Part shown: one piece after another, positions 2,729 through 42,315 of the stretch | Numbering within the stretch: position 1 is the first letter of the stretch | Layout: the number at the start of each line of letters is the position of its first letter | Assembly (NCBI RefSeq): GCF_900115755.1 | Contig: NZ_FOXQ01000001.1 | Span: 1,054,001-1,118,000 of the forward strand | Origin: Parafilimonas terrae | Lineage (GTDB): Bacteria; Bacteroidota; Bacteroidia; Chitinophagales; Chitinophagaceae | Direction: 5' to 3' | Length of the DNA stretch: 64,000 bases | Made by a program: the position numbers and the translations under genes | The notes under the pieces: generated by a model | Databases searched by the model: none | What the model saw: only the letters and a program-made list of their open reading frames with translations | What the model was told of the DNA's origin: nothing

Positions 2729-3919
2729 TTGATTGATATTAAGCAACAGGTAAAAGCTGAAGAACGGGCAGTGCTCGTGGGCATAGTGCAAAAGAGCCAG
2801 GAAGAACGCGAGGTGCAGGAAAATCTTGATGAGCTTGCCTTTCTTGCCGAAACAGCCGGCGCAGTTGCCATTAAAACCTTTACGCAAAAATTACCGCAGC
2901 CCGATAGCAGGACATTTATAGGAAAAGGAAAGCTGGAAGAAGTGGCGGCTTATATTAAAACGCACCCGGCGGATATCATCATTTTTGATGATGAACTAAG
3001 CGGCTCGCAAATTACCAATATTGAAAAAGCCACCGGCGTTAAAGCCATAGACCGCAGCGATCTTATTCTCGACATTTTTGCAAGACGTGCTAAAACTTCC
3101 CGTGCAAAAGCCCAGGTGGAGCTGGCGCAGTACCAATATATTTTGCCGCGTTTGCGTGGCATGTGGAAACACCTTGAAAGGCTTGGTGGCGGTATTGGCA
3201 CAAGGGGCCCGGGCGAAACAGAAATTGAAACAGACCGCCGTATTGTAAGGGATAAAATTTCGCTGCTGCGCAAAAGGCTGCAGGAAATAGATAAACAATC
3301 TTTTACGCAACGTAAAGATCGTGGTGAATTTATACGGGTTTCATTAGTGGGTTATACTAACGTTGGCAAAAGCACCATTATGAACCTGCTGAGCAAAAGC
3401 GATGTATTTGCCGAGAATAAATTGTTTGCCACGCTTGATACTACTACGCGTAAAGTTGTTTTTGAAAACACGCCTTTTCTCCTGAGTGATACGGTTGGCT
3501 TTATACGAAAGCTGCCGCATCATTTAATTGAAAGTTTTAAAAGCACGCTGGATGAAGTGCGTGAAGCTGATTTGCTGCTGCATGTGGTGGATATTTCACA
3601 CCCGAAATATGAAGAGCAGATGGCCACAGTAAATAAAACCCTGCAGGAACTGGGTGCGGTTGATAAACCTGTTATAACTGTTTTCAACAAAATTGATGCT
3701 TACGAAGAAACGAATTTTGATGAATGGCTGGATGCAGGCACCAAACAGGAAATTTTGCACCAGCTTGAAGAAAGATGGCAAAAGGCAACAGAAAATAAAG
3801 CGGTTTTTATTTCGGCTGTGGAGAAAAGAAATATTGATAAACTGCGGAATATTGTATTGGAAAATGTGCGGGCATTGTACCGGCAGCGGTATCCATACAA
3901 GACAGAATATTTCTTTTAA
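2729..3919 (+). CDS. hflX: GTPase HflX
   Basis: 396-residue ribosome-associated GTPase. In other bacteria HflX binds the 50S subunit and splits stalled ribosomes after stress. The N-terminal HflX domain (about residues 15-195) carries the typical RTFIGKGKLEE and GGGIGTRGPGETEIETDRR segments. The G domain has P-loop GYTNVGKST (208-216), switch/G3 DTVGFI and G4 NKID. The start is a TTG codon: an in-frame stop lies 12 bp upstream at 2717-2719 and no ATG lies between it and the conserved region. It precedes tRNA-Asn by 65 bp. The length is normal for the family. Confidence 0.96.
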   Translation: MIDIKQQVKAEERAVLVGIVQKSQEEREVQENLDELAFLAETAGAVAIKTFTQKLPQPDSRTFIGKGKLEEVAAYIKTHPADIIIFDDELSGSQITNIEKATGVKAIDRSDLILDIFARRAKTSRAKAQVELAQYQYILPRLRGMWKHLERLGGGIGTRGPGETEIETDRRIVRDKISLLRKRLQEIDKQSFTQRKDRGEFIRVSLVGYTNVGKSTIMNLLSKSDVFAENKLFATLDTTTRKVVFENTPFLLSDTVGFIRKLPHHLIESFKSTLDEVREADLLLHVVDISHPKYEEQMATVNKTLQELGAVDKPVITVFNKIDAYEETNFDEWLDAGTKQEILHQLEERWQKATENKAVFISAVEKRNIDKLRNIVLENVRALYRQRYPYKTEYFF

Positions 3920-3984: not shown

Positions 3985-4058
3985 TCCTCAGTAGCTCAGC
4001 TGGTTAGAGCATCTGACTGTTAATCAGAGGGTCACTGGTTCAAGTCCAGTCTGAGGAG
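3985..4058 (+). tRNA. tRNA-Asn (anticodon GTT)
   Basis: 74-nt cloverleaf with a 7-bp acceptor stem (3985-3991 with 4051-4057), D arm GCTC/GAGC, and 5-bp anticodon stem around loop CTGTTAA. The anticodon GTT is at 4019-4021. The T arm is ACTGG/CCAGT with loop TTCAAGT, and the discriminator base is G at 4058. CCA is not encoded. A terminator follows directly. Confidence 0.97.
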
Positions 4059-4272: not shown

Positions 4273-5160
4273 ATGAGAAAATTAAGCTCTATTGTATTGT
4301 TTGTAATGTTATTGATGGCTTCTCCTTCCTGTAAAAAAGAAACTGCTCAGCTCAGCACGGTCTCGGCTGCAAATGAATCTGATCTTTCTATTAAAAAATT
4401 AAGAAGAAAAACGCAGACAGGCGACCTTGTTGGCCGCCAGCAGCAAATAACAATAGCTACCGGCGATTATACCTATCCCACTTCACAGGCATTATTATGG
4501 CTGCCGGCCGGTTATAATGGTATAAAAAGCATTAGGAAAAAATATCCTTTAATAATTGCCCTTGACGGAGTGGGCGAGCAAGGCACAGATATTAAGGCTT
4601 TATTGCATAGCGGCACAATTGCATACCACATTTCCAAAGGATGGGATCCCGTTTCTAAAAATCCTGCGGATGGAAAAGACTATTCGTTTATTGTTTTCAC
4701 ACCACAGTGCCCGGTAAGCTGGGGCTGGAGTGCACCGCAGATAAAAACTATGCTTGCTTCATTAAAAAAGACTTACAGAATAGATGTTTCCCGTGTTTAT
4801 TTAACCGGTTTCAGCGCGGGTGGCTGGGGCTTATGGAGCTGTATGACGGATGATGTGAGCCTCTGCCAGCAGTTTGCGGCTATCGGGCCGGTAAGTTCTG
4901 CAGCGGCGGACCATCCGGATAAAATAACAAACGTTGCCAAATTCAATATCGCCTGCTGGAATATTTGCGGTACTGCTGATTCGTTTTATGGAAATGCTGT
5001 AAACTATACCAACATTATAAACGGGGCGAATCCAAAAATCCCGGCAATATTGACAAGTTTGAAAGGCGTTGGCCACAGCGCCTGGAACCAGGCTTATGAT
5101 ACAAGCTGGCGTGTAAATAAGAAAAACTTCTTTGAATGGGCTTTGCAGTACCGCAGGTAA
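4273..5160 (+). CDS. Alpha/beta-hydrolase (esterase-like) lipoprotein
   Basis: 295-residue predicted lipoprotein. Signal peptide MRKLSSIVLFVMLLM is followed by lipobox ASPSC, which fixes the start at 4273 rather than at the ATG at 4210, whose extra residues would bury the signal peptide. The mature part is an alpha/beta hydrolase of the poly(3-hydroxybutyrate) depolymerase/carboxylesterase type. It has strand YPLIIALDGVGEQG, nucleophile elbow GFSAGGWG (G-x-S-x-G), a GTADSFYG acid-loop candidate, and catalytic His in GVGHSAW. It probably faces the periplasm or cell surface and hydrolyses an ester. The gene is monocistronic, flanked by terminators on both sides. The substrate is unknown. Confidence 0.85.
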   Translation: MRKLSSIVLFVMLLMASPSCKKETAQLSTVSAANESDLSIKKLRRKTQTGDLVGRQQQITIATGDYTYPTSQALLWLPAGYNGIKSIRKKYPLIIALDGVGEQGTDIKALLHSGTIAYHISKGWDPVSKNPADGKDYSFIVFTPQCPVSWGWSAPQIKTMLASLKKTYRIDVSRVYLTGFSAGGWGLWSCMTDDVSLCQQFAAIGPVSSAAADHPDKITNVAKFNIACWNICGTADSFYGNAVNYTNIINGANPKIPAILTSLKGVGHSAWNQAYDTSWRVNKKNFFEWALQYRR

Positions 5161-5184
5161 AAGAAGCATAGCTTAAAACAATCT

Positions 5185-5219
5185 AAATGCTTTGAAACTT
5201 AAGTTTTAAAGCATTTTTT
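5185..5219 (+). terminator. Terminator downstream of the esterase gene
   Basis: A nearly perfect inverted repeat (5185-5200 with 5201-5216, one G-T pair; the central bases form the loop) followed by a T run. Confidence 0.8.
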
Positions 5220-34347: not shown

Positions 34348-34899
34348 CTATAAAAATTTATTGATGTTATTTATTGCAGCCTGCAGGCGTTGTTCATAGT
34401 TACCGCTTATCTCAATCCAGGGCGTTTTTTGGTTTATAAGCAGGTCTTTATATATATGATACAATTCAATCCGGGGTTTTTCATCCGGGTATTCCCGCAT
34501 TTCATCTGCCGTCCAGGGTAAATCTATATTGCATAGAAGATAAAGATCATAGTTCCGGTTGGCAATTTCATCTAATACCATGTATTCGCATTTGCCAAAA
34601 ACATATTCGTACCACACTTTCATTACATACATATTGGTGTCGATGAAGAGAAGCTGTGAGCTGTGAGCTGCGAGCTGCGAGCTTGCGTCTTGCAGTTTTA
34701 CCGTGCAATAATCTTCCATAGCCAACTGGCCCTGCGTTATTTTTATCAGATCATCATAATTATACTTTACACCATTCTGATGCAAATATTCCCTCGCATA
34801 TTCAGGGCACCACAGTGCATTAAAATGTTCGGCAAGCTGCCGGGCCAGCGTACTCTTGCCGGTACTTTCGGGGCCTATGGTTACAATTTTTTTAATCAT
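34348..34899 (-). CDS. NadR-like nicotinamide riboside kinase (AAA ATPase)
   Basis: 183 residues matching the C-terminal kinase domain of NadR: P-loop GPESTGKSTLARQLAEHF (9-26), then WCPEYAREYL, ITQGQLAMED, LLFIDTNMYVMKVWYEYVFG and RNYDLYLLCNIDLPWTADEMREYPD. It phosphorylates nicotinamide riboside to NMN in NAD salvage. It lacks the NadR N-terminal repressor and adenylyltransferase parts. It is 53 bp downstream of pnuC, which fits uptake coupled to phosphorylation. Residues about 72-83 (SSQLAAHSSQL) are encoded by a 7-bp tandem repeat, an apparent in-frame insertion just before a core strand. Confidence 0.88.
   Translation of the reverse strand: MIKKIVTIGPESTGKSTLARQLAEHFNALWCPEYAREYLHQNGVKYNYDDLIKITQGQLAMEDYCTVKLQDASSQLAAHSSQLLFIDTNMYVMKVWYEYVFGKCEYMVLDEIANRNYDLYLLCNIDLPWTADEMREYPDEKPRIELYHIYKDLLINQKTPWIEISGNYEQRLQAAINNINKFL
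34652..34686. repeat. 7-bp-period array inside the nadR-like gene
   Basis: Five contiguous heptamers: AGCTGTG twice (34652-34665), AGCTGCG twice (34666-34679), then AGCTTGC. Because 7 is not a multiple of 3, each copy is read in a different frame, giving a Ser/Gln/Leu/Ala-rich stretch. Confidence 0.85.
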
Positions 34900-38993: not shown

Positions 38994-39121
38994 ACAATCA
39001 ATTTAAACACAAGTATAAAAATAAACAGGCTAACAATTTCCGGAAAGTTTAGAACCTTGCAAGGGCTGCAATATTCCGCATGCAAAGCTTTGGAAACATT
39101 TTTGATTTACTTTTCCCACTT

Positions 39122-40162
39122 ATGCCGCTGATTGAATTCACCGATAAAGGCCTGTTTTGCCGCGCCGGCAATTTTTATATCGATCCCTGGAAGCCGGTTA
39201 ATTATGCCATCATCACCCATGCGCACAGCGATCACGCCAAATGGGGCAGCAAAAATTATTTATGCCACACGCTCACCAAACCTTTGCTGCAGGCCCGCCT
39301 TGGCAATAACCATTATGAAACGATGGAGTGGAACGAAACCAAAACCATTAACGGTGTAAAGGTTTCCCTGCACCCCGCCGGGCACATTATTGGTTCTTCG
39401 CAGGTGCGGGTTGAATGTAATAATGAAGTTTGGGTGGCCAGCGGCGATTATAAAGTGGCCAACGACGGCATTAGCGGCGCATTCGAGCCCGTAAAATGCA
39501 ATGCTTTCATTACTGAATCCACTTTTGGGCTGCCTATTTATTGCTGGAAACACCAGGAAGCGGTTTTTGAAAACATGCGCAACTGGATTCTTGCCAATAA
39601 AGCCCTCAATAAAACCAGCATTATTATAGCCTACAGTTTGGGCAAGGCGCAGCGCGTATTAAAAGCGCTGGAAGATTTTGACGAAACCATTTTTATGCAC
39701 GGCGCCACCTGGAATATGCACCAGGCCATTATAAATGCCGGTATTTCGCTCCCAAAAATTAAGGCAGAACGTGTAATGCCTGAAACCTCAAAGGAAAAAC
39801 TGAAAGAAAGTATAGTAATAGCGCCGCCGGGCGCCGAAGGTTCTTCGTGGTTAAAGAAATTTTCGCCTTACGCCATTGGTGTTTGCAGCGGATGGATGCA
39901 GGTTCGCGGTAATGTGCGCCGGAAAAACGTGGACGGCGCCTTTGTTTTAAGCGATCATGCCGACTGGACCGGTTTATTGCAGGCCATTAAAGCCACGAAG
40001 GCCGAAAAAGTGTATGTAACGCACGGTTACCAGGCTGTTTTCAGCCGTTATTTAAATGAAAAAGGCATTTGGAGCGCCGAAGTAAAAACAGAATATGGTG
40101 AAGAAGAGGAAGAAAAGGAGAATGCAGCAGGTTTAGCTGAAGAATCGGGAAAAATGGATTGA
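39122..40162 (+). CDS. Ligase-associated DNA exonuclease (metallo-beta-lactamase fold)
   Basis: 346 residues from the ATG at 39122, where the family sequence begins (MPLIEFTDKGLFCRAGNFYI); an ATG 14 codons earlier is not favoured. Metallo-beta-lactamase/beta-CASP fold of the SNM1/Artemis type: HAHSDHAKWG (metal ligands), HPAGHIIGSSQV, WVASGDYK, and the late LSDHADWTGLL and VYVTHGYQAVFSRYL. It processes DNA ends together with the ligase encoded next. The C-terminal acidic tail (EYGEEEEEKENAAG) runs into a 21-bp repeat array whose first unit encodes the last five residues and stop. Confidence 0.92.
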   Translation: MPLIEFTDKGLFCRAGNFYIDPWKPVNYAIITHAHSDHAKWGSKNYLCHTLTKPLLQARLGNNHYETMEWNETKTINGVKVSLHPAGHIIGSSQVRVECNNEVWVASGDYKVANDGISGAFEPVKCNAFITESTFGLPIYCWKHQEAVFENMRNWILANKALNKTSIIIAYSLGKAQRVLKALEDFDETIFMHGATWNMHQAIINAGISLPKIKAERVMPETSKEKLKESIVIAPPGAEGSSWLKKFSPYAIGVCSGWMQVRGNVRRKNVDGAFVLSDHADWTGLLQAIKATKAEKVYVTHGYQAVFSRYLNEKGIWSAEVKTEYGEEEEEKENAAGLAEESGKMD

Positions 40163-40482
40163 AAATGGGGAAGAAAGAACCGGCTTTCTCGGGAAAATGA
40201 TGACATAAATCGGGAAAAGAATCAGGTTTCTCGGGAAAATGATGGCATAAATCGGGAAATGAATGGGGTTTGTCGGGAATTCTTCCTGTTTTCTCGGGAA
40301 AAGAATCAGTTTTCCGGGGAGTTTTTTCAAAATTCCGGGGAAAAGAATCGGTTTTAGGGGGAAATATTTGAAGAAAGGGGGGAGAAAATTGAAGAAAGGG
40401 GGGAAATATTTGAGAAAAAGGGGGAGAATAAACAATAAAAGGGGGAAGTTTTCCAGGAAAAGGGGGAAAACCAGCCCTTTAA
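40145..40482. repeat. Array of about sixteen 21-bp degenerate purine-rich repeats
   Basis: Units start at 40145, 40166 (this one 23 bp) and then every 21 bp exactly from 40189 to 40462. Left units begin TCGGGAAAA, middle units CGGGGA, right units GGGGGA, a gradual drift in one direction. Nearly all G and A lie on the plus strand. The minus strand over the array is one open frame (40133-40498, GTG start) encoding FPxxxxx heptapeptides. There are no spacers between units, so it is not CRISPR. It fills the 324-339 bp between exonuclease and ligase genes. Confidence 0.9.
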
Positions 40483-40501
40483 AAATGTGAGTAACCACAA
40501 T

Positions 40502-42118
40502 ATGAAGGAGTTTGCAAACCTTGTAAATATATTGGGCGCTTCTACTAAAACATTGGAGAAGCAGGAAGCGCTTATCAACTATTTTTCCCTGGCAGATGAT
40601 AAAGATAAAGTGTGGGTGATTGCCTTGTTCAGCGGCCGCAGGCCGCGCCGGCTGGTAAACTCATCCTTATTACCGCAATGGTGCGTGGAAATAGCGCAAA
40701 TTCCGGGCTGGCTGTTTGGCGAATGTTACGGTTCGGTGGGCGATATGGCCGAAACCATTGCTTTACTCCTGCCCGAAGCCACGGAAGAAGCCAGCCAGTC
40801 TTCGTTATCTTTCTACATAGAAAAACTTATTTCGCTCGAAAAGGAAAGCGAAGCCGTAAAAAAGGAATTTATTACCGGTTGCTGGCGCAGCATGCATAAA
40901 GATGAGCGTTTTGTGTTTAATAAACTGCTTACCGGCAATTTCCGTATCGGCATTTCGCAAAAACAAATGGTAAATGCGCTGGCCAAAACGGTAAAGCTGG
41001 AGTCTTCGGTGATTGCGCACCGCATTAGCGGCAACTGGGACCCCGTTACCACGGCGTTTAATGACCTTTTAAGTGAAAATGCAAACATCATTGATTATTC
41101 AAAGCCCTATCCTTTTTACCTGGCGTATGCCCTGGAAGAAAATCCGGAAACTTTAGGGGAGCCGCAGGAGTGGCAGGCTGAATGGAAGTGGGATGGCATT
41201 CGCGGCGAAATCATCAAAAGAAATAATGAACTGTTTGTATGGAGCCGCGGCGAAGAATTAATGACGGAGAAGTTTCCCGAATATGCTATTCTTCAGCAAA
41301 AACTGCCGGAAGGCGTGGCTTTGGATGGAGAGATTATTACTTTAACCAATGCAGATGCTTCAAATAATGAATTTACTGTTTTGCCCTTTGCATTATTGCA
41401 AACAAGAATTGGAAGGAAGAACGTTACCAAAAAGCAATTAACGGAATCGCCGGTAGGTTTTATTGCTTACGATGTTTTGGAGTTTAATGGAGAAGATTTT
41501 CGGGGCAAAACACTGCAGGAACGCCGGGCTGTGCTGGAAAAAATTGTTGCCGGGGCGAATGAACCGGTGCTGCGGCTGTCGCCCGTTATTTATTTTAATA
41601 ATTGGGATGAACTGGCTGCTACCCGCGCCACCAGCCGCACTATAAATGCGGAAGGTATTATGCTGAAACGCAAAACATCTGTGTACCAGGTGGGCAGAAA
41701 AGTGGGCGACTGGTGGAAATGGAAGATTGATCCGCTCACCATAGATGCAGTGATGATTTATGCCCAAAAAGGCAGTGGCCGCCGCAGCACGCTGTACACC
41801 GATTACACGTTTGCCGTGCGGGATGATGATAAACTTATTCCTTTCACCAAGGCTTATTCCGGCCTTACTGATAAAGAATTTGCACAGGTGGATGCATTTG
41901 TAAAAAGAAATTCGCTGGAAAAGTTCGGGCCGGTGAGAACGGTAAAGCCCGAGCTGGTTTTTGAGATTGCTTTTGAGGGCATTGCTGCCAGTAACCGGCA
42001 CAAAAGTGGCGTGGCACTGCGCTTTCCGAGAATTAAGCGGTGGCGGAAAGATAAACCGGCATCGGAAATAAATACATTGGATGATCTGAAGAAGATGCTG
42101 GAGGCGTATGGTAAATAA
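40502..42118 (+). CDS. ATP-dependent DNA ligase (LigB/ligase-associated type)
   Basis: 538 residues from the ATG at 40502; a GTG five codons earlier is unlikely. N-terminal DNA-binding domain (FSGRRPRRLVNSSLLPQW, FNKLLTGNFRIGISQKQM). The nucleotidyltransferase domain has motif I KWDGIRGE (lysine near residue 229), motif III-IV region (VALDGEIIT, EGIMLKRK) and motif V WWKWKID. The OB fold follows with VFEIAFEGIAASNRHKSGVALRFPRIKRWR. It seals nicks using ATP. In many bacteria this ligase travels with an exonuclease, a Lhr-type helicase and a phosphoesterase; only the exonuclease is seen here. Confidence 0.95.
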   Translation: MKEFANLVNILGASTKTLEKQEALINYFSLADDKDKVWVIALFSGRRPRRLVNSSLLPQWCVEIAQIPGWLFGECYGSVGDMAETIALLLPEATEEASQSSLSFYIEKLISLEKESEAVKKEFITGCWRSMHKDERFVFNKLLTGNFRIGISQKQMVNALAKTVKLESSVIAHRISGNWDPVTTAFNDLLSENANIIDYSKPYPFYLAYALEENPETLGEPQEWQAEWKWDGIRGEIIKRNNELFVWSRGEELMTEKFPEYAILQQKLPEGVALDGEIITLTNADASNNEFTVLPFALLQTRIGRKNVTKKQLTESPVGFIAYDVLEFNGEDFRGKTLQERRAVLEKIVAGANEPVLRLSPVIYFNNWDELAATRATSRTINAEGIMLKRKTSVYQVGRKVGDWWKWKIDPLTIDAVMIYAQKGSGRRSTLYTDYTFAVRDDDKLIPFTKAYSGLTDKEFAQVDAFVKRNSLEKFGPVRTVKPELVFEIAFEGIAASNRHKSGVALRFPRIKRWRKDKPASEINTLDDLKKMLEAYGK

Positions 42119-42156
42119 ATCAACGCAGGCCTGGTTAAAGGTAAACGCCAGAAATG

Positions 42157-42240
42157 TTCAATACTCAATATTCAATAATCAACACTCAATTTGCAGAGGT
42201 TATAGAATTGAGTATTGCTTATTGTTTTGTTGAATATTGC
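42157..42240. repeat. 7-bp-period array forming a long imperfect inverted repeat
   Basis: Five exact-register heptamers of form NTCAAYA/T (42157-42191), then 13-14 bp, then a complementary-type array of NTATTGN heptamers (42205-42240). The two arms can fold into a hairpin of about 34 nt per arm with mismatches, followed by a T-rich stretch. It might end ligase transcription. Confidence 0.75.
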
Positions 42241-42315
42241 TTATTTTTCTTTATCTAAGCCGCATTGATTGGAATATCTTTATTCATTGCGTTAAAAAAC
42301 TTACAATCGTTAGCT

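Follow-up and report, generated by a model that had tools for sequence, protein, structure and literature searches.

An array of 21-bp units lies between the DNA exonuclease and DNA ligase genes in the 64,000-nucleotide stretch of the Parafilimonas terrae genome that we analysed (hereafter the window), and it appears to belong to a small family of arrays in intergenic DNA whose turnover is fast (Table 1). Comparison of the copies establishes the family, its period, gaps of 21 bp between copies and conservation of a core in one pair of arrays, this conservation being weaker in the window's own pair. From the letters of the arrays, we propose that each unit combines a core with a spacer and would offer one site per two helical turns, with a DNA-binding protein as its most likely ligand, a reading to which we give close to, but not quite, even weight.

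Table 1. Genes and arrays of the window, and arrays found elsewhere in the source genome (G000) and in genus relatives (G001, G004).
Feature	Location	Strand	Description
Ligase-associated DNA damage response exonuclease	window 39080..40162	+	TIGR04122, 455 bits, cut-off 325
16-unit array	window 40145..40482	+	GA-rich strand; 21, 23, then 14 x 21 bp
Six TCGGGAA-type units	window 40189..40314	+	alternate as 42-bp dimer
Two CGGGGA-type transition units	window 40315..40356	+	
Six GGGGGA-type units	window 40357..40482	+	G5-6 runs every 20-22 bp
Antisense open frame, 121 codons, through array	window 40133..40498	-	taken to arise from the 7-codon period and not to be a gene
Cisplatin damage response ATP-dependent DNA ligase	window 40487..42118	+	TIGR04120, 610 bits, cut-off 400
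L002 array	G000, C32:1053.6 kb		between convergent transporter-like and aldo/keto reductase genes
L003 array	G000, C32:43 kb		between convergent rplQ and M1-type peptidase
L178 array	G000, C32:251 kb		tsf to nth
L179 array	G000, C21:316 kb		between PBP1A-type gene and ribE
L009 array	3200-3430 (G004:C8)		12-bp near-palindromic core, ATATTGCAATAT type, every 21 bp
L313 array	1480-1668 (G001:C1:136.2 kb)		ATATTGCAATAT-type core, 21-bp spacing
L328 array	1417-1521 (G004:C57:23.0 kb)		ATATTGCAATAT-type core, 21-bp spacing
L215 array	4760-5190 (G000:C21:164.8-165.2 kb)		third 21-bp family; ~20 copies of GAGAATTACGGAATGCCATCT, 1-bp slip mid-array

A direct reading of the window array agrees with the initial annotation on its 16 units, which start at 40145 (21 bp), 40166 (23 bp) and 40189, from where 14 exact 21-bp units follow. 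The first two units open with TCGGG and TGGGG, and the last codons and stop codon of the exonuclease open reading frame fall inside the first of them. The opening letters drift in order from TCGGGA to CGGGGA to GGGGGA, as had been annotated. Other details needed amending: we counted six runs of 5-6 G (40357-40466), 20-22 bp apart, where five at 20-21 bp had been claimed, and the statement that purines are almost confined to the plus strand was too strong, as the purine content of this strand is 61% in the left part of the array and 79% in the right (window, 49%), with a longest pure purine run of 19 bases. TRF returned periods of 21 and 42 for this array, and its self-match was highest at lag 42 (0.67), followed by lag 21 (0.56), whereas no lag from 5 to 60 exceeded 0.42 in any of 1000 dinucleotide shuffles; when 464 kb of the source genome were shuffled by triplets as a control, no array passed the same threshold. 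As next-but-one units are more similar than neighbouring units (69% versus 59%), the 42-bp dimer is the better unit of the window array. A 7-bp unit does not describe it (identity 0.25 at lag 7 versus 0.56 at lag 21). Like an intergenic minisatellite, it has units within 10-100 bp that follow one another head to tail in non-coding DNA.

A whole-genome search for the unit, a check proposed in the initial annotation, found the window array and four further places in the source genome (4.99 Mb, 44 contigs), and related arrays were found in two genus relatives, twice in G006 (C12, at the ligase gap, and C3:59 kb) and once in G002 (C22). To judge resemblance between arrays, pair scores were compared with 300 column-permuted nulls (mean, standard deviation and best null in brackets). 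The window array scored 164 with L002 (30, 6, 70), 119 with L003 (41, 11, 100) and 75 with L179 (30, 9, 65). Its score of 65 with L175 equals the best null (36, 7, 65) and that of 68 with L178 lies below it (36, 8, 71); both of these arrays join the family through L003 and through L005, the G006 array at the ligase gap. L176 resembles L005 (68; 33, 5, 53) and not the window array (36; 27, 5, 47), and by the same scoring the L215 and L009 arrays are unrelated to the window array. A 42-position sequence model built from the family arrays found them again, together with one weak place in G000 (C40:14878, E 0.005; 150 of 2764 first-look candidates scored), three weak matches in G005 (E 0.005-0.04) and one in G006 (C14, E 0.05).

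Seven genus relatives (G001-G007) were compared, and the ligase locus is present in six of them, G005 having no match; the closest named ligase (87% identical) belongs to a metagenome-assembled genome of Parafilimonas sp. (L034). Two of the six carry 21-bp arrays in the exonuclease-ligase gap and four carry none, in a comparison of presence and absence between species with one genome per species. The G006 array has a related GA-rich unit (L005, G006:C12) and the G004 array has unrelated letters (L009, G004:C8). The distance from stop codon to ligase match is 37-67 bp in G001, G002 and G007, and G003 has a 608-bp gap with no period; in ligase loci from further afield, most gaps are shorter than 150 bp or the genes overlap. 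These results do not fit the suggestion that the unit is a private satellite facing unrelated short gaps in relatives, as copies occur elsewhere and relatives have arrays. In the tree of exonuclease and ligase, G000 (98/96) and then G006 (89/88) fall outside the rest of the genus, and the array at this gap may be old with later loss or may have been gained twice. Units of the window and L005 arrays are alike (score 73; null 45 ± 7, best of 300 nulls 71), and common descent of the two at the shared gap is unproven, their unit order being matched by 372 of 500 shuffles.

At the other loci, we found no array on the matching side of rplQ (six relatives, one a fragment), nth (six relatives) or ribE (five), where some neighbouring genes differ. 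As arrays are missing from these gene sides and from four of six exonuclease-ligase gaps, single arrays are dispensable; given this turnover between species, none of them is essential by itself. Among 244 genomes of the taxonomic family, blastn with the L215 and window arrays (two candidates scored per genome) gave nothing credible outside the genus; each query had one outside match, one an unrelated 7-bp array and the other a place without periodicity. Model R1, run on 244 genomes with stricter filters and 26 candidates scored in each, had one outside match, in a long open frame without periodicity. As R1 was built from 25 stretches of family arrays, its matches to those arrays arise by construction, and it found little else of its own. 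We also considered a mobile vehicle as the carrier and rejected it: the L003 array had no match in plasmids or phages and one exact unit pattern was absent from viral contigs.

The way in which the arrays change was read from pairs of copies. The alignment of L003 with L178 pairs 271-290 bases, of which 51-55 are substituted. Whole-unit gap calls depend on the gap penalties, and under four of the five settings used one 21-bp gap separates this pair, the remainder being 1+16+4 bp or a single 1-bp slip; the loosest setting adds a 14-bp gap at the very end. No unit-order shuffle of 500 reached the score of this pair, so that these arrays are related by block copying, one from the other or from a source that they share. 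Unit order is modestly kept for window/L002 and window/L003 (13, 5, 5 and 13 of 500 shuffles as good); the corresponding counts were 19 for L178/L175, 37 for L005/L175 and 97 for L003/L175, and order is not conserved for window/L178 (426) or L003/L179 (230). The window/L002 alignment has 21-bp gaps in all five settings and gaps of 1-12 and 22 bp in some. Together with the 42-bp dimers, the 21-bp gaps support growth by local duplication, as the initial annotation had suggested.

Substitutions between copies are distributed unevenly within the unit. Between L003 and L178, 3 of 112 sites are substituted in an 8-bp core (AAAAGGAT or AAAAGGGT), versus 52 of 178 in the other 13 columns, and column permutation gives p values of 0.010, 0.0014 and 0.0006 for the contiguity of the quietest 6, 7 and 8 columns. 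In window/L002 the effect is weaker, with 4 substitutions in 70 sites in the quiet columns GGGAAAA versus 41 in 136 elsewhere, and contiguity p values of 0.014, 0.013 and 0.10. As the core columns were picked after the counts were seen, Fisher values for these contrasts are optimistic, and units within one array are not independent. In some L003 and L178 units the block TTTT replaces the core AAAA (GGTTTTAGGGT), in one case at the corresponding place in both arrays.

The same plan occurs with other letters. In the G004 exonuclease-ligase gap each unit consists of a 12-bp core, AYATKGYAATRT, and 9 variable bases, and a core of this type recurs in a second G004 array and in one of G001, which together form a second family. 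Across the three pairs formed by its arrays (at G004:C8, G004:C57 and G001:C1) mean identity is 0.64-0.78 in the core and 0.31-0.34 in the 9-bp spacers, slightly above the 0.24-0.27 expected from composition, and the best-block score was reached by none of 200 column permutations. The spacers of this family are thus slightly constrained in their letters and not fully free. A conserved core with a variable spacer of fixed length therefore describes L003/L178 and the G004/G001 arrays, and window/L002 less strongly. Dyad symmetry is marked in two second-family arrays (column permutations as good: L009, 0 of 300; L313, 4 of 300), weak in L176 (7), the window's left eight units (17, marginal) and L179 (25), and absent from L002 (56), L178 (90), L005 (93), L003 (139), L175 (155), L215 (166) and L071 (296); read as a palindrome, the unit fails in most of the 12 arrays (window tried twice). 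By eye, the L215 array, which represents a third family, looks like the L071 array of Flaviaesturariibacter. A metagenome-assembled genome of Chitinophagaceae (L097, 2530-2640) contains near-perfect 22-bp repeats, GTGTCATCTTGAGCGCAGCCGA.

The two-helical-turn period pointed out in the initial annotation thus recurs in families that share 21 bp and no related letters. In 1.264 Mb of G000, intergenic arrays at z 6 had periods of 7 (nine arrays), 8 (one) and 21 bp (five), and all five with units longer than 10 bp were 21-bp arrays; L002 is outside these five, an antisense frame covering it. A looser setting also passed two further intergenic places, with periods of 14 bp and of 21 bp (L140). Periods in 0.4 Mb of G004, G005 and G006 were 21 and 33 (one each); in 0.8 Mb of seven other family genomes they were 7 (12), 8 (five), 14 (one), 21 (one, in three near-identical copies) and 29 (one), and in 0.79 Mb of ligase loci 7 (ten), 8 (two), and 9, 14, 22, 38 and 46 (one each). 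The L071 array, which largely overlaps an open frame, was left out of these counts. From this survey, 21 bp is the usual long period of the genus and not of the taxonomic family; 7 bp was the commonest intergenic period in the samples of G000, of the family and of the ligase loci. Among the short repeats, the window has 4.6 copies of AGCTGCG (34652-34683) and a heptamer array of CAATATT, CAATGTT and CAATTGT words followed by the reverse-complement set (42120-42265); similar arrays lie in L207 (16080-16600 and 17240-17550), where the heptamer-based array is repeated several times, and in L147 (16450-16610).

The chief rival to a protein-binding array is a neutral minisatellite, in which slippage or unequal exchange duplicates 21 and 42 bp in the tolerant DNA at gene ends, copies spread by chance and nothing is gained by the cell. 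The absence of arrays from the matching gaps of most relatives, the 42-bp dimers and 21-bp gaps, and the many 7-bp arrays in the same genome all agree with such an origin. In addition, 21 is 3 x 7, and the part of one study available to us reports a proposal that slippage is favoured at 7 nt, as the length with which DNA polymerase interacts (PMC4679880). The way in which units are copied could by itself produce the strict spacing, the phase being inherited. Neutral slippage does not, however, account readily for substitutions that spare an 8-bp core, or for second-family spacers that are barely alike and yet fixed in length, and identity at lag 7 is low in seven of the eight 21-bp arrays measured (0.19-0.29; L215, 0.34). 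We regard the neutral minisatellite as a serious possibility, if on balance a doubtful one.

As the arrays lie at gene ends, two of them just past intrinsic terminators, they probably act on DNA and not on mRNA. These terminators precede the arrays following rplQ (L003) and tsf (L178); a terminator-like sequence is also visible before the G004:C57 array, but was not called by the strict scan, which was likewise negative ahead of the L002 and window arrays. Control of ligase expression was another role put forward in the initial annotation; the copies elsewhere flank other genes. A transcription attenuator or buffer between exonuclease and ligase is improbable. A terminator-like stem followed by a T tail does lie within the window array (40290-40321, plus strand; 12 pairs, loop 8), but such sites are no commoner in the region than in shuffles (6 versus 5.6 expected), the remaining copies flank other genes or sit past terminators, and both strands occur as sense (GA in the window and L179, CT in L178, either in the convergent L002 and L003). 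We also rejected RNA structure in the window copy, which counts against an attenuator as well: its GA strand folds with a z of -5.1 against mononucleotide shuffles, a signal that is gone with dinucleotide shuffles (z -0.62 and +0.72). The L009 values (z -5.7 and -6.8) come from the mononucleotide null that misled for the window copy. At the gathering score, Rfam matched only a tRNA (3985-4058) in the whole window, so that the array is not a known RNA family.

Curved DNA and triplex or quadruplex formation had also been suggested in the initial annotation. A quadruplex or triplex element on the G-rich strand is very improbable: in its favour are the six G runs and, at the right end, two G3 patterns with long loops (1-17) and a G4Hunter maximum of 1.72, but the canonical motif (four G3+ runs, loops 1-7) occurs in none of 11 arrays on the strand scanned, G4Hunter maxima in other family members are 0.60-1.32 and 15-16 bases separate the G runs. 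The case for curved DNA is weak, as phased tracts occur in some arrays and are not common to all. Against a null that preserves the 21-bp period (500 permutations), AAA/TTT tracts lie near a 10.5-bp phase in the block copies L003 (p 0.006) and L178 (p 0.014), and A/T tract phasing is not significant in the window (p 0.26), L002, L179, L005, L175, L176, L215, L009 or L071; G/C steps are near this phase in the window (p 0.048), L002 (0.024) and L009 (0.038).

An antisense peptide of seven-residue repeats is barely credible: an antisense frame is open over 121 codons in the window, open frames of 149 codons at L002 and of 139 over part of L003 occur too, and one or more frames are free of stops in 6 of 11 arrays, but a 21-bp period tends to make frames all open or all closed, every frame is stopped in the other 5 of 11 (with at least two stops in L003 and at least one in L178), the window frame has no Pfam family match, substitutions by position modulo 3 number 16, 15, 24 and 18, 8, 19, and the quiet sites are contiguous.

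Binding of a protein, still putative, is the best supported of the uses put forward in the initial annotation. In the mechanism we propose, units would be gained and lost mostly whole, as 21 or 42 bp, and at least one array appears to have been copied as a block to another gene end. The two-turn spacing would stay while letters drift outside the short core, a candidate binding site at the level of DNA. Quiet cores, loose spacers of fixed length and the same unit length in unrelated families point to sites on one helix face, one per unit, and hence to a DNA-binding protein, probably dimeric, that could coat the array. A broader version, in which the genus uses one design with unrelated letters (a 7-14 bp core and a nearly free spacer of fixed length, together 21 bp) as a hitherto undescribed class of phased binding arrays, moving from one gene end to another and perhaps serving to organise or insulate the chromosome, is speculative and we think it unlikely. 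If the two-turn spacing is selected, the arrays would mark an unknown DNA-binding system in Chitinophagaceae and provide ready probes for its protein. If it is unselected, they would illustrate clearly how slippage DNA can stay in phase despite heavy drift, and would caution against annotating open frames inside such arrays as genes.

In the literature, where our coverage of subscription journals was thin, we found no earlier account of arrays like these, with a 21-bp period, in Bacteroidota; the portion of PMC9426551 available to us mentions Chitinophagaceae, tandem repeats and intergenic DNA. Phased A-tract clusters and curved DNA, as described in the accessible parts of PMC3940949 and PMC3431218, resemble L003 and L178 in their AAA/TTT phasing and differ from the window and eight other arrays. 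Heptanucleotide direct repeats (TAACTGA sets) of Beggiatoaceae, Cyanobacteria and Bacteroidetes are likewise intergenic, tandem and patchily spread, with long arrays in several Bacteroidetes, but, in the part of the report available, consist of one fixed 7-bp word that in the BOGUAY genome lies mostly just upstream of start codons (PMC4679880); arrays of the window type have a 21-bp period, no clear internal 7-bp period and a place at gene ends. Bacterial intergenic minisatellites (VNTR) share tandem units of about 20 bp, unit gain and loss, and turnover between species, whereas the units described here are strongly diverged yet in phase, have a core-plus-spacer structure and belong to a dispersed, partly block-copied family. 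Plasmid iterons and partition-site arrays are direct repeats spaced near two helical turns that are bound by protein on one face. The 21-bp arrays have this spacing in common with them; no replication or partition gene is among the ten named flanking or neighbouring proteins, and, unlike iterons and partition sites, these arrays lie on contigs of chromosomal size, in several copies at the ends of genes.
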